Source: Nocardia sp. BSTN01 (GTDB lineage Bacteria > Actinomycetota > Actinomycetes > Mycobacteriales > Mycobacteriaceae). From it: a DNA stretch of 64,000 nucleotides. Location: positions 36,616-100,615 of the forward strand of contig NZ_JADKYP010000023.1 of the NCBI RefSeq assembly GCF_015354405.1, written 5' to 3'. Under the pieces are notes generated by a model that was given only the letters and a program-made list of their open reading frames with translations, was not told where the DNA came from and searched no databases. The position numbers and the translations under genes were made by a program. Below are positions 52,054 to 64,000 of this stretch, piece by piece (position 1 is the stretch's first letter; each line of letters starts with the position of its first letter).

Positions 52054-52785
52054 TCACTCCTGCAATGCCGCCACCGCGAACATCAGCGCGGCGCCCGCGA
52101 TCGTGCAGAACAGCACGGCCCGCGACGGCCGGCCCGAATGCGCTTCCGGCAGAATGTCACTCGTTGCCAGATACAGCAGGAATCCGGCGAAATATCCCAG
52201 ATACAGGCCCGCGACGTCGGCGGGCACCCGGATCACCGTGCCGATGACCGCGCCCGCCACCGGCGCCAGCGCGTCCAGGACCAGCAGGGTCAGCGCCCGC
52301 CGCCGCGCGTTGCCGTACAGCGTGGGAATGGTGAAGGCGTTGAATCCGTCGGCGAAATCGTGCGAGATCACCGCGATCGCGACCGAGACGCCCAGCGCCG
52401 TCCCGGTCTGGAACCCGACGCCGATACTCAGGCCGTCGAGCATGCTGTGGAAGATCAACCCTCCGGTGGCGACCAGGCCGACCGAGGGAAAGTCGTGGGT
52501 GTGGCGGCCGAAATCCTGTTCGTGACCGACGTGGATCGCCATCTCGCGTTCGATGATGTGAATGGTGAAGAAGCCGATCACCGCGGCCACGAGCACTCCT
52601 GGCACCCCCGCGACGAGCTGACCGGATTCGGCCAGCGCATCGGGAATCAGGTCGAAGGCGACCACACCGAGCATGATTCCGGCGGCCAGCCCGAGGATCA
52701 GCCGCTTGCGCTCACCGATGCGCGCGGCCACCAATCCGCCTGCCAGCGTCGAACACATCGAGAGCAGGGCCAGCAGGATCGCCAC
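52054..52785 (-). CDS. ZIP-family divalent metal transporter
   Basis: A 243-residue transporter with eight hydrophobic segments. Metal-site helices are [14 protein letters not shown] (TM4) and [13 protein letters not shown] (TM5), where His and Asp replace some usual Glu positions. A His-rich loop ([14 protein letters not shown]) between TM3 and TM4 is typical of ZIP proteins. It imports zinc or a similar cation into the cytoplasm. The start is uncertain: GTG at 52785 begins just before TM1, GTG at 52824 adds 13 residues. It is divergent from the zinc-dependent alcohol dehydrogenase gene. Confidence 0.85.
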
Positions 52786-52924
52786 CGGACCAGCATCCGA
52801 TATCGGCGCGAGCCCGCCGAGCACATCCGACCGGCGGGTCGCCCGGGTGCTGTGTTCAATGGCACCCTGCGCAGCTTCGCGGGATAGTTTGCATAGGCAA
52901 CCATGCGGGGGTAGGCATGAACGC

Positions 52925-53977
52925 ATGACGACAGCTGCCGCGTATTCCGTGTCCGCGCCCGACGGCCGGTTCACCAAGACCACCATCGAACGCCGCGCAC
53001 TCGGCCCGCACGACGTGCTGATCGATATCAAGTACGCCGGCATCTGCCACTCCGACATCCACACCGCGCGCAACGAGTGGCACGGCACCAAGTACCCCTG
53101 CGTCCCGGGTCACGAGATCGCGGGTCTGGTGGCCGCGGTCGGCTCGGAGGTGACCAAGTTCGCGGTCGGCGACCGGGTCGGCGTGGGCTGCATGGTCGAT
53201 TCGTGCGGACAGTGCGAGCCCTGCCTGGCCGGTGAGCAGCAGTACTGCGTGCGCGGCGCCACCATGACCTACAACGGCACCGTCCCGGAGGAAATCCAGG
53301 CCGGCGGCTACACCCTGGGCGGGTATTCGACCCAGGTGGTGGTGACCGACGGCTTCGTGGTGGGCATTCCGGAGGGCATCGGACTCGACGAGGCCGCGCC
53401 GCTGCTGTGCGCGGGAATCACGCTGTATTCGCCGCTGCGGCACTGGAACGCCGGCCCCGGCAAGCAGGTGGCCATCATCGGCATGGGTGGCCTGGGCCAT
53501 GTCGGGGTGAAGATCGCGGCCGCGATGGGCGCCGAGGTGACGGTGCTGAGCCATTCGCTGAACAAGGAGGACGACGGCCGGCGGTTCGGCGCGCACCACT
53601 ACTACGCCACCACCGACCGCCAGATCTTCCGCGATCTGCGCAACCGATTCGACCTGATCGTCAACACCGTCTCGGCCGATCTGCCGATCGACACCTATAT
53701 GCGCCTGCTGAACCTCGACGGCACCATGGTGATCCTCGGCCTGCCCGATCAGCCGCTCGCGGTGCGGCCGTTCACCCTCACCGGCAACCGCCGGTCGCTG
53801 GCCGGCTCGAATATCGGCGGCATCCCGCAAACCCAGGAGATGCTGAACTTCTGCGCCGAACACGGCATCGGCGCCGAGATCGAGGTCATCTCCGCCGATC
53901 GCATCGACGAGGCCTACGAGCGCGTGGTCGCCAGCGACGTGCGGTACCGGTTCGTCATCGACGCCGCCACCATGTGA
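52925..53977 (+). CDS. Zinc-dependent NAD(P) alcohol dehydrogenase (AdhC/CAD-like)
   Basis: A 350-residue medium-chain dehydrogenase. Catalytic zinc ligands are in GICHSDIH and GHEIAG; the structural zinc site is [15 protein letters not shown]. The Rossmann loop is [20 protein letters not shown]; the Ser-His residues in [10 protein letters not shown] after strand 2 favour NADP. It resembles mycobacterial AdhC and cinnamyl-alcohol dehydrogenase types, which reduce aldehydes. The ATG at 52925 is used. Its 3' end overlaps the convergent PapA-like gene by 23 bases. It faces the ZIP transporter across a 139-base divergent region. Confidence 0.93.
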
Positions 53978-55460
53978 ATTTCGGGGCGACGCCGTCGTCC
54001 GCGCGCCCGGCGTCGTCACCGGACCGGAAGACCGTGCCGTCCCCGGACGCCGGAACCGAACCGGCGCCGGATCGCGCTGCCCCGCCGTAGCCGGACGACG
54101 CTCCCGTGCTGTCGCCCGATGACGCCCCCGCGCTGTCGCCCGATGACGCTCCCGCGCCGCCGCCCGATGAGGCCCCCGCGCCGATGGCGGTGCGGTGCAA
54201 CAACTCCGCGAGATTGCGGCGCACCCGGCCCATCTGGGCGCGGCTGTGATCGTTGGTGTCGTATTCGACCTGCACCGTCAGCCGCTCCCCCAGGGTGAAG
54301 GCGGTCAGCTTGGGCGGCATCCCGGGCCCCATGGCCAGCAGGTTGTCGCGCACCAGCCGCACCCCGTCGGGGACGATGTGGTCCGGCACCCGGCCGATGT
54401 TCGACAGCGCGATACTGGGCTGTTCCGCGAGCATCCGGGCGGTGGCCTCGTCGCGAATGTATCGGCCCGCCAACGCCATTCGCGCGGGGTCGCGACGCTC
54501 GAGCGCCGCGCGGACGTCGGCGTGCACCACCTGTCCCAGTTCGAACGGATCGGCGGATTCGGCCACCGCCAGGAGCGTGCCCCAGCCGGAGGCGCAGTTG
54601 AGCACCGTCTCGTCGGGCAGCCACGGATCCAGCGCCGCACGCATATCGGCGGCATAGCCGCAGACCATCGGCAGTGCGCCGACGCCGCCCAGTTCGGCGC
54701 GCACCGCGGCCAGCGCACACCCGCTCAGCAGGGCGTTCACCCCGATTCCGGCCGCGCGCGCCGCCGCGGCGAAGGCCGCGGTCACCTCCGGTTCCAGTTC
54801 GATCCGCTCGGCGACGAAGAGTCCCCGTCCCGATCCGGCCGTGCCGTCGCGCGGCAGGCGGGCGGGCGCCTCACCGATGATCGTGCGCATCGCCGCGAGC
54901 AGTTCGGTGACCTCCGCCTCGGAGACGACGGCGGTGAGGCGCTCGTCGACCGCTTGCGGCAGTTCGTGATTCGCGCGCACGGGCATCGGCGCGCCACGAC
55001 GGTGGGCGGTATAGCGCCGCCACATCTCATCCAGCAGCGCGAAAGCCGAACGGCCGTCGGTGATTCCGTGATGGATGACGAGCACGATGCGGGCGCGGTC
55101 GTCCTCGCGGAACACCCGCGCGAAGAACAACCCGTCGTCCCACGGTTGCGGCTGGTTGACGAAATCGACGTATTCGATGTCACCACCGGCGCTTTCGGTG
55201 ACCGGGGGCCGGTAGCCCTCGACATGGCGGAGCACGAGCATCCCGCCGTCGTCGACTCGGCGGCAGCTGAGCAGCGGATTGTCGGCGGCCAGTTCGGCCA
55301 GCACCGTGCGCAGCAGTTCGGTGTCGAATTCCCCCTCGACGGTCGATCCGATGAACAGCGCCATTCCGCCGACCGGCACGGAACCGAAGGTGGCGTGTTC
55401 CTGGAAGTAACCCGACTCGAAGGGCGATATCGGACGTTGCGTGACCATACGGAGAACCAT
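53955..55460 (-). CDS. PapA-like condensation-domain acyltransferase
   Basis: A 501-residue BAHD/condensation-fold acyltransferase. The catalytic motif is [15 protein letters not shown] (HHxxTDG, about residues 130-136). The second domain carries a SGWGTLL segment where related proteins have DFGWG. Such enzymes (mycobacterial PapA5 type) move acyl chains from carrier proteins or CoA to lipid alcohols. The first ATG at 55460 is used; 55448 is possible. The last ~80 residues are a Gly/Ala/Ser-rich tail encoded partly by a 24-bp tandem repeat, overlapping the alcohol dehydrogenase gene. A divergent TetR gene and a long palindrome suggest dedicated repression. Confidence 0.82.
54091..54186 (-). 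repeat. Four-unit 24-bp tandem repeat in the acyltransferase 3' end
   Basis: Four imperfect 24-bp units (54091-54114, 54115-54138, 54139-54162, 54163-54186) share the core CCCGATGACGC. They encode an eight-residue repeat of the GAGASSGD type in the PapA-like protein tail. The repeat count is likely to vary between strains. Confidence 0.85.
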
Positions 55461-57184: not shown

Positions 57185-57638
57185 CACGGCCCTCCTGCCG
57201 TTCGCCTGCATACCCGTGCGACCGTCTGCACGCCGGGCGTCGACGCCACCCGGGAACCGGGCGGCGGGTCCGGCCGAATCCTACGTGCCGCGGTCCGGAT
57301 ACGCCCGGGCTCACGCACACCGGCAACACCCCGCTCGGCAGCCCGCCGCAGACGGCGGTACGGGCCGCGGTCGACCGCCGCCCGGCCCGAATACGTCGCG
57401 TGACCTGTAATCGTCTGCGTACCTTGATATTCGGAGGCGCTACGACCCCGCGCCGGCGCCGCGCACGACGCCGCCGGCCGCCACCCCGATTCGCCGGTAC
57501 CGAACTCCGCTCCCGACCGCCCCGCACAGCGTAAGGTCGACCCTGGAACCGGGTCCGGGACTGTCTCTACGGCTATCACCGCAGGTCCGCCCGCCCGGAT
57601 CCGTGTCGGTGTTCGGCAACCGTGCTGGAGGTCCTCGC
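57185..57638. other. Intergenic region upstream of the GMC oxidoreductase
   Basis: About 450 bases between divergent genes, GC-rich and without a convincing open frame of typical codon use. A slightly A/T-richer stretch at about 57405-57440 (TGTAATCGTCTGCGTACC) could hold a promoter for one of the two genes. I see no strong palindrome or RNA element. Confidence 0.5.
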
Positions 57639-59270
57639 GTGCCCGACCGTGAATCGTTCGACTACGTCATCATCGGAGCGGGGAGCGCGGGCTGCGTCCT
57701 CGCCCATCGCCTCACCGAGGATCCCCAGGTCTCGGTCCTGCTGCTGGAGGCCGGTCCCGACGACCGGGCCGACGAGATCAAGATACCGGCGGCATGGGGG
57801 AAATTGATTCGCACCCAATGGGATTGGCGATACGAGACCACACCACAGAAACATCTCGGCGGCCAGCGCGCGTACTGGCCGCGGATGAAGGCGCTGGGCG
57901 GCTGCTCGTCGATGAACGCGATGATCTTCATCCGCGGCAATCGCGCCGACTACGACGGCTGGCGGCGTGACTTCGGCGCGGTCGGCTGGAGCTACGAGGA
58001 CGTCCTACCCTATTTCGTGCGGTCGGAGACCAACACCGGCCTGCGTTCGCCCTATCACGGCACCGACGGCCCGTTGCACGTCGAGAACCGCCGCTTCACC
58101 CACGAACTGACCGATGCCTGGATCGCCGCCGCCGCGGCCGCGGGCCTGCCCCGCACCGACGATTTCAACGGCGCGGCGCAGGAGGGTGTGGGCCGCTACC
58201 AGGTCACCCATCGCAACGGCCGCCGCTGGTCCACCGCCGACGGCTATCTGCGCCCGGCGCTGGACCGGCCGAATCTGACGGTGCGGACCGAGGCGCACGC
58301 CACCGGGCTGGTACTCGACGGCGCCCGCGCGGTCGGCGTCACCTATCGCCGCCACGGCAGCGAGCACACGGTGCACGCCGAGGCCGAGGTGCTGCTGTCC
58401 GGCGGTGCGGTCAATTCGCCGCAGTTGCTGATGCTCTCCGGGATCGGGCCCGCGGCGCATCTGCGTGACCTGGGCATCGAGGTGGTGGTGGATCTGCCCG
58501 GCGTCGGCGAGAACCTGCACGACCACCCGGTGACACCGATTCTGTGGCGCACCCGCGGCGTCTCCGATCTCGCCGATTTCGAGACCCCGTTGCGGCTCGC
58601 GCAGTGGCAGGCACTCGGTCGTGGGCCGCTGACCTCCAATGTCGGCGAGGGCGGCGGATTCGTGCGCACCCGCGAGGGCCTCGAAGGCCCCGACATCCAG
58701 TACCACGTCGCGCCGACAGCGTTCTACGACAACGGTTTTCACGAGAACATCGCTCCGATGTTCACGGCCGGGCCGACGCTGGTCGAGGTGCACAGCCGCG
58801 GCCGGTTGCGCTTGCGGTCGGCCGATCCGCTGTGGAAGCCGGAGATCGATCCGGCCTACTTCTCCGACCCGCGCGACGCGGATGCCCTGCTCGCCGGCTG
58901 CCGGCAACTGCTCGAGATCGCGCGGCAGCAGCCGCTGTCCGCCCACCTCGACCGCTCCTACCTGCCCGAAGACGCCGACCGCATCGACGAGGACGGCTGG
59001 CGGGCCCATATCGCCCGTTGGACGCAGACACTGTTCCACCCCGTCGGCACATGCGCCATGGGCACTGGCGAGACCGCGGTGGTGGACCCCGAACTGCGCG
59101 TCCACGGCGTGAGCGGACTGCGCGTGGTCGACGCCTCGGTCATGCCCCGCATCGTCCGCGGCAATACCAACGCGCCGACCGTCATGATCGGCGAGAAGGC
59201 GGCCGATCTGATCCGCGGCCGCACCCCGTCGTCCACCACCGGCACCGCGACGAAGGAGGCCACCCGATGA
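57639..59270 (+). CDS. GMC-family oxidoreductase (choline/alcohol dehydrogenase-like)
   Basis: A 543-residue FAD flavoprotein. The N-terminal FAD loop is YVIIGAGSAGCVLAHRL; GMC signature 1 is in ALGGCSSMNAMIFIRGNRAD, signature 2 in GAVNSPQLLMLSGIGP, and the catalytic His in LFHPVGTCAMGTGE. Family members oxidise alcohols to aldehydes. The GTG at 57639 follows GGAGG at seven bases and matches the family N-terminus. The gene overlaps the aldehyde dehydrogenase start (ATGA), resembling betA-betB, though the alcohol could be something other than choline. Confidence 0.92.
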   Translation: MPDRESFDYVIIGAGSAGCVLAHRLTEDPQVSVLLLEAGPDDRADEIKIPAAWGKLIRTQWDWRYETTPQKHLGGQRAYWPRMKALGGCSSMNAMIFIRGNRADYDGWRRDFGAVGWSYEDVLPYFVRSETNTGLRSPYHGTDGPLHVENRRFTHELTDAWIAAAAAAGLPRTDDFNGAAQEGVGRYQVTHRNGRRWSTADGYLRPALDRPNLTVRTEAHATGLVLDGARAVGVTYRRHGSEHTVHAEAEVLLSGGAVNSPQLLMLSGIGPAAHLRDLGIEVVVDLPGVGENLHDHPVTPILWRTRGVSDLADFETPLRLAQWQALGRGPLTSNVGEGGGFVRTREGLEGPDIQYHVAPTAFYDNGFHENIAPMFTAGPTLVEVHSRGRLRLRSADPLWKPEIDPAYFSDPRDADALLAGCRQLLEIARQQPLSAHLDRSYLPEDADRIDEDGWRAHIARWTQTLFHPVGTCAMGTGETAVVDPELRVHGVSGLRVVDASVMPRIVRGNTNAPTVMIGEKAADLIRGRTPSSTTGTATKEATR

Positions 59271-60766
59271 CGACCGTGAACGAGATCGGTGGGATCGACA
59301 CGCACACCACCTTCGATGTGCACGATCCCGGTACCGGCGAGGTGGTGGGCACCTACCCGGTCCACACCGAGGCCGATATCGAGGCGGCGGTGGCCCGGGC
59401 CCGCACGGCATTCGACTGGTGGTCCGGCCTCGACTACGCCGAACGGGCCCGGCGGCTGGCCGGATTCGCCGGACTGCTGGCCCGGCGGATGCGCCAGCTG
59501 GCCGCGGTGATGCACGACGAGACCGGCAAGCCGTATTCCGATGCCGCGCTCGAGGTGGCGCTGAGTCTCGACCATCTGAAGTGGGCGGGCCGCAACGCCC
59601 CGAAGGTGTTGGGCCGCAAGAGCGCCCGGGTGGGACTGCTCACGATCAACCAGGCGGCATCGGTGGAGTACAAGCCGCTCGGCGTCATCGGCGTGATCGG
59701 CCCCTGGAACTATCCGGTGTTCACGCCGCTGGGTTCGATCGTGTACGCGCTGGCAGCGGGTAACGCCGTGGTGTTCAAACCCAGCGAATATTCCCCCGGC
59801 GTCGGCCGCTGGCTGGTCGACATGTTCGCCGAGGTCGTCCCGGAACAGCCCGTGCTGCAACTGATCACGGGCGAGGGGCCGACCGGTGCCGCGCTGTGCC
59901 GATCGGGTGTGGACAAGATCGCCTTCACCGGCTCCACGGCGACGGCCAAGAAGGTGATGTCCGCTTGCGCCGAGAGCCTTACACCGCTGGTCGCCGAATG
60001 CGGTGGCAAGGATGTGCTGCTCGTCGACGCCGACGCCGATCTGGACGCCGCGGCCGGCGCCGCGCTGTGGGCCGGGATGGCCAATGCCGGCCAGTCCTGT
60101 ATCGGCACCGAACGGGTCTACGTGCACGAGCGCGTCTACGACAGCTTCGTCGAGACCTTGGTGGCGAAGGCGAAACAACAACGCGCGGGCGTTGATTCGG
60201 GCGCCAAGATCGGGCCCATCACGATGCCGAAGCAGCTCCAGGTGATCCGGCGCCACATCGAGGACGCCGTCGCGCGGGGCGGGCGGGCGCTGACCGGCGG
60301 CGCCGACTCCATCGTCGGGCAGGTGGTGCAGCCGACCGTGCTGGTCGACGTGCCCGAGGACGCCCCGGCCGTCACCGAGGAAACCTTCGGGCCCACCCTG
60401 ACCGTCGCGAAGGTGCCCGATATGGATACCGCGATCGCCAGCGCCAACGACAGCCGCTACGGACTGTCCGCGGCCGTGTTCTCGAGGGCGCGCGGGCGCG
60501 AGCTGGCCGACCGGCTGCGCACCGGGATGGTCAGCGTCAACGCGGTTTTCACCTTCCCGCAGATTCCGTCGCTGCCCTTCGGCGGTGTCGGCGACTCGGG
60601 CTTCGGCCGCATCCACGGCCCCGACGGCTTGCGTGAATTCACCTACGCCCACGCCGTCGCGCGGCAGCGTTTTCCCTCGCTGCTCGCCCTGACGACCTTC
60701 GATCGCACCCAGAAGGCCGACGACACCATGGCGACCCTGATGGCGTTGCTGTTCGGCCGGCACTGA
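59267..60766 (+). CDS. Aldehyde dehydrogenase
   Basis: A 499-residue NAD(P)-dependent aldehyde dehydrogenase. It has the Asn motif VIGPWNYPVFTPLG, the coenzyme-site AFTGSTATAKKV, the general-base Glu in LVAECGGKDVLL and the catalytic Cys in NAGQSCIGTERV. The C-terminus ends with a hydrophobic helix (TMATLMALLFGRH) that may contact membrane. It is coupled to the GMC oxidoreductase by an ATGA overlap, giving a two-step alcohol to acid pathway. The substrate is undetermined; betaine aldehyde, fatty or aromatic aldehydes are all possible. Confidence 0.94.
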   Translation: MTTVNEIGGIDTHTTFDVHDPGTGEVVGTYPVHTEADIEAAVARARTAFDWWSGLDYAERARRLAGFAGLLARRMRQLAAVMHDETGKPYSDAALEVALSLDHLKWAGRNAPKVLGRKSARVGLLTINQAASVEYKPLGVIGVIGPWNYPVFTPLGSIVYALAAGNAVVFKPSEYSPGVGRWLVDMFAEVVPEQPVLQLITGEGPTGAALCRSGVDKIAFTGSTATAKKVMSACAESLTPLVAECGGKDVLLVDADADLDAAAGAALWAGMANAGQSCIGTERVYVHERVYDSFVETLVAKAKQQRAGVDSGAKIGPITMPKQLQVIRRHIEDAVARGGRALTGGADSIVGQVVQPTVLVDVPEDAPAVTEETFGPTLTVAKVPDMDTAIASANDSRYGLSAAVFSRARGRELADRLRTGMVSVNAVFTFPQIPSLPFGGVGDSGFGRIHGPDGLREFTYAHAVARQRFPSLLALTTFDRTQKADDTMATLMALLFGRH

Positions 60767-61079: not shown

Positions 61080-63383
61080 CTATTCAGCCGCTTCGGCACG
61101 GCGCCGCACCCGGCGAGCCGCGGCGACCATATTGCGCAGCGACGGGTCCAGCTGCCAATAATGGCGGGTCTTCAATCCGCCGTCCGGATTCGCCCACAGC
61201 CGCTGCGGTGTCACGGCTTCGGCTGCGGCGGTGAGCAATTCGTCGATCTCGTCGATGTCGGGAATGCGCGCCGAACGGCTCTCGTACACACCGGGACCCA
61301 CGCCGTGGCTCAGGCCGTGCCCCTCCTCGACATCCTCGGTCAGCGCCTTGAGCACCCATTCCAGCGAGCGGGTCGCGACGATGGCGGTGACGTCGGCGTC
61401 GAGTTCCTCGATGGCACGCACGATTTCGGAGCGGGCCGAGTAGGCGATGTGGGTGTGGATCTGAGTGTCGGGCCGCACCCCGGAGGTCGCCAGCCGGAAC
61501 GCGTTGACCGCCCAGCGCAGATATTCGGTGCGCCCGTCCGGACGCAGCGGCAGCAGTTCCCGCACCGCCGGTTCGTCGACCTGGATGATCGCCACACCGG
61601 CCTTCTCGAGATCGGCCAGTTCGTCGCGGATCGCGAGCGCCACCTGATCGGCGGTCTCGTACAGCGGCTGGTCCTGGCGCACGAACGAGCGGGCCACCAT
61701 CGTCACCGGACCGGTCACGATGCCCTTCACCGGTTTGTCGGTGAGCGACTGCGCGTAGGTGATCCACTCCACCGACATCGGCTTCGGCCGCGACACGTCG
61801 CCGTAGATGATCGGCGGCCGCACACACCGCGAACCGTAGACCTGCACCCAGCCGAAGTGGGTGGTGGCGAAACCGTCGAGCAGTTCGGCGAAGTACTGGA
61901 TCATGTCGTTGCGTTCGTGCTCGCCGTGCACGAACACGTCGAGGCCGATGTCCTCCTGCAGGCGGATGGTCGACTCGATCTCGGCCTCGATCCGCTTGCG
62001 GTACTCCTCGTAGGACAGCCGGCCTTCGCCCAGGTCGTAGCGGGCCTGGCGCACCGCGGCGGTCTGCGGGAAGGAACCGAGCGTGGTCGCCGGAACCAGC
62101 GGCAGATTCAGGCGCTCCCGCTGCGCCTTGGCCCGCACCTCGTACGGTTCGCGCTCGCGCATCTGCGGGGTCACCGCGTAAACCCGTTGCCGCACAGCGT
62201 GTTTCTGCTTGAAATGCACCGAGGTCGGCCGCTTCGCCCACTTCTCGGACGGTCCTTCGGTCAGTGCCTTCGCCAGCGAAACGACTTCGAGCACTTTCTG
62301 TTTCGCGAAAGCGAGGCGGTCGGCGACGTTGCCCTCGATATCGTATTCGACCAGCAGGTCGTAGGGCACGTGCAGCAACGTGGTCCCGGTGGACACGACG
62401 AGGTCCGGGCACACCTTCGACAGCGCGTTCAGGTATTCCAGGGTGACCAGCCGGTCGGCACGCCACACGTTGGTGCCGCTGATCACGCCGGCGTAGAGCC
62501 GCTTGCGCCGGATGCCGGGAATCTCGGCGAGTTCCTCGGGCCGGGTGCGGTGGCTGGCCAGGTCCAGGCCGATCGCCTCCACCGCGGTACCCGCCAGAAT
62601 CCGCACGGCCTCACCGAAATCGCCGTACTGGCCGGTGACGAGGATGCGCGGACGCAGCGCGGACGTCGACAGTCGCTGATAGGCCCGCTCGAACGCGGCC
62701 AGTTCCTCCGGGGTGCGCTCACTGGTGAAGCAGGGCTCATCGAACTGCACACAGGTGGAACCGCGCTTGGCCAGGATCTCGAGCAGCTGTTCGTAGACCG
62801 GCAGCAGCTCGTCCAGCAGGGTCAGCTTGTCGAATTCGGTCTCACCCGGCACCTGCCCGGCCTTCGACAGCAGCAGCAGCGACAACGGGCCCAGCACGAC
62901 CGGCCGCAGTTCGATCCCGCGGTCCATCGCCCGATCCCACTCCTCCAGCAACGCCTCGGGATGCAACGAGAATTCGGTGTCGGCGTCGAGTTCGGGCTGC
63001 CGGTAGTGGTAGTTGGTGCCGAACAGCCGGACCAGCTCCAGCGGCGGCAGATCGGGCCGGCCGCGCGCCATCAGGAAGTAGAAGTCGAGCGGGTGCAGCT
63101 CCTCGCGATACGGCTCGAACCGCTTCGGGACCGCGCCGAACAGCAGCGCGTTGTCGAGGATGTGGTCGTAGAAGGAGAAGGTGTTACCGGGTACCTGCGT
63201 CAGTCCGGTCGCGGCCAGCTCGGAGAACTGGGTGTCCTGGATGTCGCGCCCGACCGCGAGCAACTCCTCGCGGGACAGGGCGCCGTGCCAGTAGGACTCC
63301 AGTGCGCGCTTGAGCTCCCGGTGCGGACCGATCCGCGGGTAACCCAGGATGCTCGATCCGAAACCGTCGGTGACGTTGACCAT
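61080..63383 (-). CDS. metE: MetE-family cobalamin-independent methionine synthase homologue lacking zinc ligands
   Basis: A 767-residue full-length MetE homologue; MetE transfers a methyl group from methyl-tetrahydropteroyltriglutamate to homocysteine. The N-terminal barrel has LGYPRIGPHRELKRALESYW, and homocysteine/folate residues are kept in DVFVHGEHERNDM and IIQVDEPAVRELLP. The zinc site is altered. The family motif HxC reads THIAYS (His645 kept, Cys to Ala647), the Glu at the end of DADVTAI is Val669, and the usual NPDCGLKTR is NPDGGLKTR (Cys to Gly735). Zinc activates the homocysteine thiol in characterised MetE, so normal activity is doubtful. It could be a decayed copy or a paralogue with a different job. 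The gene is otherwise intact and conserved in length. Confidence 0.85.
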   Translation of the reverse strand: MVNVTDGFGSSILGYPRIGPHRELKRALESYWHGALSREELLAVGRDIQDTQFSELAATGLTQVPGNTFSFYDHILDNALLFGAVPKRFEPYREELHPLDFYFLMARGRPDLPPLELVRLFGTNYHYRQPELDADTEFSLHPEALLEEWDRAMDRGIELRPVVLGPLSLLLLSKAGQVPGETEFDKLTLLDELLPVYEQLLEILAKRGSTCVQFDEPCFTSERTPEELAAFERAYQRLSTSALRPRILVTGQYGDFGEAVRILAGTAVEAIGLDLASHRTRPEELAEIPGIRRKRLYAGVISGTNVWRADRLVTLEYLNALSKVCPDLVVSTGTTLLHVPYDLLVEYDIEGNVADRLAFAKQKVLEVVSLAKALTEGPSEKWAKRPTSVHFKQKHAVRQRVYAVTPQMREREPYEVRAKAQRERLNLPLVPATTLGSFPQTAAVRQARYDLGEGRLSYEEYRKRIEAEIESTIRLQEDIGLDVFVHGEHERNDMIQYFAELLDGFATTHFGWVQVYGSRCVRPPIIYGDVSRPKPMSVEWITYAQSLTDKPVKGIVTGPVTMVARSFVRQDQPLYETADQVALAIRDELADLEKAGVAIIQVDEPAVRELLPLRPDGRTEYLRWAVNAFRLATSGVRPDTQIHTHIAYSARSEIVRAIEELDADVTAIVATRSLEWVLKALTEDVEEGHGLSHGVGPGVYESRSARIPDIDEIDELLTAAAEAVTPQRLWANPDGGLKTRHYWQLDPSLRNMVAAARRVRRRAEAAE

Positions 63384-63807
63384 GAGCGGGACTCCCTTTC
63401 GAGCTGCGGTCGAGGACCTTACTGCAGCTTATGCCCGGTAACGGTGATACCCGCCGCACGAGGCGGAGGGTACAGCTGGTGTGGATGAAGTTGTGGACGA
63501 GATATCGGATCCGCGCTACTCGCGTACTCCGACCAGCGATGGAAACCGGAGGTCACCTCCCTCGCACCCCGCACGGATCGAGTCTTACGAGCGACCGTTC
63601 GCGGCCGGCTCGCCGTTCGGGTGCCGCTGCGTAGGCGAGGAAGAAGCAAGCAGCGGTGCCCGAACGGCGAGCCCTAGGGGCCGCGAACACGCCGAGCCGA
63701 GCGAGGCCGAAAAACACAGCGCGAACATTTCCGAGACGGTAGACGCGAAGGGCCTCCCGGAACGGGCGATGTCCATGCCGCGGCTTCCGAGCCGACGGTC
63801 CCTGCGC
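63384..63807. other. Intergenic region upstream of metE
   Basis: About 420 bases between the FadB2-like stop and metE. It includes a 90-base imperfect palindrome (63598-63687) and a metE leader of about 200 bases. I looked for a cobalamin riboswitch and an S-box or SAM-type leader and saw no B12-box or recognisable core. No gene of credible composition is present. Confidence 0.6.
63598..63687. repeat. 90-base intergenic palindrome
   Basis: The left arm (63598-63630) and right arm (63650-63687) are inverted copies. GGCTCGCCGTTCGGG and GCCGCTGC pair almost perfectly with the right arm, with one TG/CA mismatch pair and a 5-base bulge (around CCTAG) near the base. The outer TTCGCGGCC/GGCCGCGAA also pair. 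The 19-base loop is purine-rich. It may be a terminator/attenuator or a dispersed palindromic element. Confidence 0.85.
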
Positions 63808-64000
63808 TTACCCCCGGTTGTACTGGTAGAAGCCGGCTCCCGTCTTCTTACCGAGCAGCCCGGCCTCCACCATGCGCATCAGCAGCGGCGGCGCCGAGTA
63901 GAGCGGCTCCTTGAATTCGGCGTACATGGAGTCGGCGATCGACTTGACCGTGTCGAGGCCCACCAGGTCGGTCAGGGCGAGCGGGCCCATTGGGTGGGCG
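63808..64000 (-). CDS. fadB2: 3-hydroxybutyryl-CoA dehydrogenase, C-terminal part (FadB2-like; cut by window edge)
   Basis: The last ~63 residues of a 3-hydroxyacyl-CoA dehydrogenase. The visible part begins AHPMGPLALTDLVGLDTV, the typical start of the C-terminal helical domain, and ends EAGLLGKKTGAGFYQY, a nearly invariant family signature. The enzyme oxidises 3-hydroxybutyryl-CoA with NAD(P). The N-terminal Rossmann domain lies outside the window. In M. tuberculosis fadB2 (Rv0468) lies a few genes from the hbhA region, so this restores the conserved order after the 20-kb accessory block. Confidence 0.92.
   Translation of the reverse strand, partial: AHPMGPLALTDLVGLDTVKSIADSMYAEFKEPLYSAPPLLMRMVEAGLLGKKTGAGFYQYNRG

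Follow-up and report, generated by a model that had tools for sequence, protein, structure and literature searches.

A conserved zinc-less relative of MetE encoded next to isocitrate lyase and fadB2 in Nocardia and related genera

The 64,000-nucleotide stretch of Nocardia sp. BSTN01 analysed here (referred to as the window) carries on its reverse strand, at 61080..63383, a gene for a protein of 767 aa that has both domains of the methionine synthase MetE and has lost three of the four zinc ligands. We call this zinc-less MetE-like protein MetEv. Related proteins with the same loss form a single clade, and their genes lie in a fixed array with those for isocitrate lyase and FadB2. Judged from sequence and gene order, and with a probability of roughly 0.58, MetEv would be a neofunctionalised zinc-free protein on the MetE fold that is not a methionine synthase and takes part in the FadB2 pathway when cells grow on acetate or fatty acids.

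Zinc site and surrounding active site

The reading frame is uninterrupted from the ATG to the stop codon, and its product matches Meth_synt_1 (345.8 bits) and Meth_synt_2 (405.7 bits) of Pfam. Two homologous barrels are present and residues 7-765 are covered by model and structural alignment. The initial annotation of a full-length MetE homologue without stop or frameshift is thus borne out by 767 open codons and both Pfam domains. MetEv passes the looser NCBI model NF003556 (938.9 against a cut-off of 541) and stays below the equivalog cut-off of TIGR01371 (865.9 against 929.95 bits). Among the matches listed, the closest named relatives come from Nocardia, with N. cerradoensis (L113) at 99.1% identity, and no recognisable description of the clade was found among the matches listed from the open-access literature.

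The zinc positions were set by alignment to the canonical MetE of the same genome (P0002, with the ligands His-Cys-Glu-Cys) and to PDB chain 1u1h. This alignment places His645, Ala647, Val669 and Gly735 where the initial annotation had put them, and the E. coli MetE ligands His641, Cys643, Glu665 and Cys726 to which it referred agree with the available text of PMC7857596. His645 (codon 61449..61451, reverse strand, as for all codons below) is the sole zinc-ligand position retained and is His in 131/131 variants. The first Cys ligand, Cys in 31/31 canonical proteins, is replaced by Ala647 (61443..61445), a position that reads G in 64 variants, T in 23, A in 21, P in 13, S in 5, N in 4 and E in one. 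Val669 (61377..61379) takes the place of the Glu ligand (V 127 and I 4 of 131; E in 31/31 canonical MetEs). Gly735 (61179..61181) stands at the last Cys ligand (C in 31/31 canonical MetEs) and is G in 130 variants and F in one, part of this set having been fetched with a pattern that itself requires Gly735. Ligands two to four are absent from all 131 distinct full-length variants; the complete His-Cys-Glu-Cys site occurs in 0/131 variants as against all 31 canonical MetEs compared. The same three ligands are missing from 71 variant loci found by protein or family similarity, a set that counts the window gene and some genomes twice.

The differences go beyond zinc and thereby extend the initial annotation: the pterin-stacking Trp is replaced as well, and so is the DIHSP motif. 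Residue roles were mapped from the T. maritima MetE described by Pejchal and Ludwig (PMC539065, available text). Trp539 of that enzyme stacks on the pterin. Its position is occupied by Arg565 in MetEv (61689..61691) and reads R in 123, F in 5, L in 2 and G in one of 131 variants, so that the stacking Trp, found in 31/31 canonical proteins, occurs in 0/131; the pterin-gripping Glu609 is retained in 123/131. His672 of the DIHSP motif is one of three candidate catalytic acids, the others being Asp467 and His111 (PMC539065). In MetEv the motif reads ESRSA, and Arg703 (61275..61277, within YESRSAR) stands at the His672 position (R 129 and H 2 of 131 variants; H in 31/31 canonical). Asp467 is kept as D493 in 131/131 variants and His111 as H126 in 106/131.

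Other parts of the active site are kept. The homocysteine cradle S437, E488, D603 and M494 is invariant in variants and canonical MetEs; S437, E488 and D603, which contact the amino and carboxyl groups of homocysteine, are found in 131/131 variants, as the initial annotation of retained homocysteine-site residues had implied. The residues for the first glutamate of the folate are likewise retained, R519 and R522 in 131/131 variants, R22 in 129/131 and K25 in 128/131 (gaps in two, one T). A further group is specific to the variants: R128, C211, Y253 and Y297 in 131/131, Q129 and T250 in 130 and R703 in 129. All of these except R703 lie in the N-terminal half, at positions that hold other residues in nearly all canonical MetEs, and R128 and Q129 come straight after the NYHY motif that holds His111 of T. 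maritima. Taken together, the alignments indicate conserved remodelling of the active site rather than random loss.

Compared with MetE from T. maritima, A. thaliana and Candida albicans, MetEv has three zinc ligands, the pterin Trp and the DIHSP motif replaced. The core methionine synthases MesA to MesD are related to the C-terminal barrel and have no N-terminal barrel, whereas MetEv matches both Pfam domains. According to the available text of PMC7857596, MesA, MesB and MesD show high conservation of the zinc residues, and Price et al. report Chloroflexales MesB-like proteins without them (FSHG, YCDQ, YREQ), for which another function is proposed. These proteins are a precedent for a MetE relative without a zinc site. 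As described there, however, they are core proteins from another phylum with other residues at the site, while in MetEv both the His and the N-terminal barrel are present.

Distribution, descent and selection

A variant-level match was obtained in 71/71 genomes of the window's genus, including its own (in G015 as a contig-edge fragment). Across the family, where 401 genomes were searched, 24 of the 31 genus codes gave a match at E <= 1e-280, and the zinc site was read in one or more members of all 24. Seven genus codes are without MetEv, and in g35, g38, g40 and g48 it is present in some members only. Named carriers, among the matches listed, are Nocardia, Rhodococcus, Gordonia, Williamsia, Hoyosella, Lolliginicoccus, Skermania, Smaragdicoccus, Aldersonia, Prescottella and Tomitella. 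A tree was built from 37 variants and 29 canonical MetEs with nine trait columns left out; in it the variants make up one side of a branch with an SH-aLRT of 100. The A/V/G variant, for which the initial annotation had proposed a clade test, thus belongs to a single clade, separate from MetE, whose stem measures 0.71 changes per column.

The strict pattern NPDGGLKTR, which misses L056 (Phe) and L043 (GLKAR), for example, as well as other signatures, matched 4/394 genomes of the class, every one belonging to the window's genus, and revealed no independent zinc losses elsewhere. In a named genome collection at least 118 stretches matched the pattern; with the window protein as query, 110 held a variant-type hit, among them an R. 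opacus record (L153), and 8 held none. The latter comprise two chance matches (L100, L164), one metE remnant (L143) and five variants cut at the end of the stretch. The remnant, from Oceanisphaera litoralis, consists of 115 residues with an internal deletion and Gly at the last Cys ligand, and looks like an ordinary pseudogene.

Purifying selection is tighter on MetEv than on the canonical MetE of the same genomes. Across 17 genomes of the genus, which give 136 pairs, median dN/dS was 0.137 for MetEv and 0.222 for canonical MetE, and the MetEv protein distance was the smaller one in 136/136 pairs. As dS of MetEv exceeds 0.5 in 118/136 pairs, where the method is rough, the argument rests on close pairs. 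In the six closest (G000, G035, G037, G056), dN/dS was 0.024-0.061 for MetEv compared with 0.139-0.175 for canonical MetE. The dN/dS test suggested at the outset therefore gave a low value, below that of the canonical enzyme.

The source genome (7.79 Mb, 206 contigs) also encodes, on another contig, a canonical full-length MetE with His-Cys-Glu-Cys and has two matches to the MetH activation domain, so that the proposed search for a second canonical metE or metH found both. A third MetE-barrel homologue of 350 aa (L003) is located just downstream of a frame that we take to resemble a tRNA-thiouridylase. Outside this genome, we picked 27 genomes for a single MetE-like match and repeated the search with canonical MetE as query. 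One match per genome resulted, at the MetEv position wherever a position was listed. The MetH activation domain exceeded its family cut-off in 27/27 of these genomes with MetEv and without canonical MetE; thus, no genome in the sample depends on MetEv alone.

The array with isocitrate lyase and fadB2

Isocitrate lyase, FadB2 and MetEv were encoded in the same order and on the same strand at 50/50 loci, the first two families being named by NCBIfam at one locus. The gap between fadB2 and the MetEv gene ranges from 5 to 609 bases with a median of 106, and is at most 100 in 22/50 and at most 200 in 37/50 loci. Many loci of the window's genus have gaps of several hundred bases, and given these distances co-transcription of the two genes in this genus is only putative. 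Eight loci of the family without MetEv retain isocitrate lyase and FadB2; a ninth, L255, from a genus code without MetEv, and L256-L258, from other families of the order, retain isocitrate lyase only. The two fetched loci of g58 and g59, presumably mycobacteria, have isocitrate lyase and FadB2 and no MetEv. The closest described arrangement is icl-fadB2-umaA1 of M. tuberculosis, which is named as an operon in the available text of PMC2566814. It shares the first two genes, and its third gene is umaA1 in place of the MetEv gene of the Nocardia array.

This array is invisible from the window because the contig breaks at 64000, cutting fadB2. Only the 3' end of the gene, which encodes 3-hydroxybutyryl-CoA dehydrogenase, is present (63808..64000, reverse strand; match to residues 228-287 of FadB2), and FadB2 residues 2-212 together with isocitrate lyase are found on contig C199 of the same assembly. 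The intervening gap of 424 bases (63384..63807, reverse strand) contains a strong stem-loop at 63607-63673 with arms at 63607-63629 and 63651-63673; a 231-nt fold has -126.3 kcal/mol and a z of -4.46. Its 23-base arm occurs once in the window. The 14-base core was present in 5/300 fetched loci, two of them the same place, indicating that the stem-loop is a feature of the window species and its near kin, where it is perhaps an attenuator or a repeat element.

Several other genes of the window were recorded. At 57603-60766 on the forward strand, a GMC oxidoreductase (Pfam) is followed by an aldehyde-dehydrogenase-like frame (from its translation), both convergent with the MetEv gene. They look like a choline-to-betaine style pair, and the GMC gene belonged to no shared cluster among the other loci. 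A PapA_C/condensation-type acyltransferase is encoded at 53955-55460 (reverse strand) and a zinc alcohol dehydrogenase, of a family that recurs near MetEv in many but not all loci, at 52673-53977 (forward strand). The region from about 3500 to 49300 includes PPK2 (Pfam) and frames that we take to be mshA-like, murB-like, deoC-like and HbhA-like. Its content, as far as we can judge, recalls Rv0467-Rv0505 of M. tuberculosis, which suggests a possibly old synteny around icl1-fadB2.

FadB2 was also compared between genomes with and without MetEv. For 56 genomes belonging to six of the genus codes and chosen among the 401, FadB2 and isocitrate lyase were each scored by identity to a single reference protein; by coordinates, the FadB2 compared adjoins isocitrate lyase in each genome having FadB2. 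In g38, FadB2 identity was 85-89% with MetEv (4 genomes) and 67-84% without (11, plus one lacking a close FadB2), in g48 85-88% (4) and 68-78% (4), and in g35 85-87% (8) and 76-83% (12). FadB2 identity was thus lower without MetEv in three of four genera (p 0.005, 0.023 and 0.0002). The fourth, g40, went in the reverse direction, with 84-85% in the presence (4) and 86-87% in the absence (2) of MetEv (p 0.085). The six genomes of g58 and g59, which have no MetEv, showed 70-73%. For isocitrate lyase, none of the four genera showed a difference in identity between genomes with and without MetEv (p 0.74 to 1).

Our interpretation is that constraint on FadB2 has been relaxed several times over where MetEv is missing. 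The comparison is correlative, drawn from related species whose FadB2 rows do not count as independent. In a FadB2 tree of 62 rows with and 16 rows without MetEv, the MetEv label needs 7 changes, 4 of which are forced by starred branches. Most rows without MetEv from g35 and g40 cluster by genus and have longer branches, a branch of 0.11 leading to those of g40, and those from g38 are found near their own genus in a poorly resolved part of the tree. Several fall outside their own genus, L249 and L250 (g48) with L285 (g38) and L248 (g35) with L252 (g59), which transfer of a replacement FadB2, or else long-branch error, may partly explain. FadB2 showed no internal stop in 17/17 MetEv-less loci examined and thus still has work of its own. 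The positions that drift without MetEv (14) are scattered.

Possible roles of MetEv

The view taken in the initial annotation, that the protein is a paralogue whose role has changed and not a decaying copy, is supported by the clade, by dN/dS and by the canonical MetE in the same genome; the content of that role is what we infer here. With three ligands lost, MetEv would be unable to form the zinc-homocysteine thiolate, and without it the MetE reaction would be impossible in the usual way. Residue patterns suggest that the old homocysteine cradle probably binds an amino-acid-like or carboxylate ligand, beside which the former metal site would now be lined by small and hydrophobic residues. A second ligand is probably anionic, such as a polyglutamyl folate or another negatively charged compound, and may be held by the old basic groove (Arg22, Lys25, Arg519, Arg522) together with the new arginines. 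Gene order and coupled conservation make a catalysed step in the FadB2 pathway most likely, and its setting would be growth on acetate or fatty acids with the glyoxylate shunt running. A more specific version can be put forward tentatively, at somewhat less than even odds: the MetE fold would have given rise to a new class of zinc-free reaction, in which MetEv, with FadB2, handles an intermediate that lies between short-chain acyl-CoA and either glyoxylate/amino-acid or one-carbon metabolism. In that version the enzyme is produced alongside the glyoxylate shunt in Nocardia, Rhodococcus and related genera and has been misnamed methionine synthase.

The sequence would fit an enzyme and a ligand-binding regulator alike, and the main rival is a silent partner of FadB2 or a sensor. 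Such a pseudoenzyme would perform no chemistry; it would bind an amino acid or folate and thereby sense it, or else stabilise or regulate FadB2. Loss of the zinc ligands, the pterin Trp and the DIHSP His with the amino-acid cradle left intact is what it predicts, and it also accommodates the coupled conservation in three of four genera and the scatter of the drifting FadB2 positions. What makes it rather unlikely in our estimation are the variant-specific residues that are fixed or nearly so (R128, C211, Y253, Y297, Q129, T250, R703). They look like a reshaped site, and R128 and Q129 after the NYHY motif and R703 in the DIHSP motif are near candidate acids in the sequence.

A zinc-independent backup methionine synthase, useful for instance under zinc shortage, is much less probable still. 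It would account for the retained homocysteine cradle, glutamate-tail residues and Glu609, and for the 27 MetEv genomes without canonical MetE; the kept cradle and Glu609 (123/131) also speak against the reading we prefer, as they fit a residual methionine-synthase-like reaction. In MetE, however, it is zinc that activates homocysteine (PMC539065, available text), and MetEv has lost the pterin Trp and the DIHSP His as well. Moreover, a MetH domain is found in every one of those 27 genomes, and the constant neighbours at the 50 loci are isocitrate lyase and FadB2. Decay of a spare copy or a sequencing artefact, to which the loss of catalytic residues taken alone might point, has practically no chance of being correct: relatives have full-length open frames, 131 distinct sequences carry the same signature, and the low dN/dS of the six closest pairs rules it out. 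A canonical site in close relatives, a variant confined to one strain and relaxed selection, which had been named in advance as outcomes against a changed role, are all contradicted by these results.

Our preferred reading, a zinc-free protein of the FadB2 pathway, bears on genera known for lipid storage, lipid degradation and opportunistic infection, namely Nocardia, Rhodococcus and relatives. As the looser NCBI model would name such proteins methionine synthase, methionine pathways in Nocardia and Rhodococcus may be misread, and 27 of the genomes examined carry MetEv and no canonical MetE. The constant association of MetEv with isocitrate lyase and FadB2 suggests that a step in the use of acetate and fat has gone unrecognised. 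MetEv would also be a natural experiment in which a double-barrel methyltransferase was refitted after the loss of its metal.
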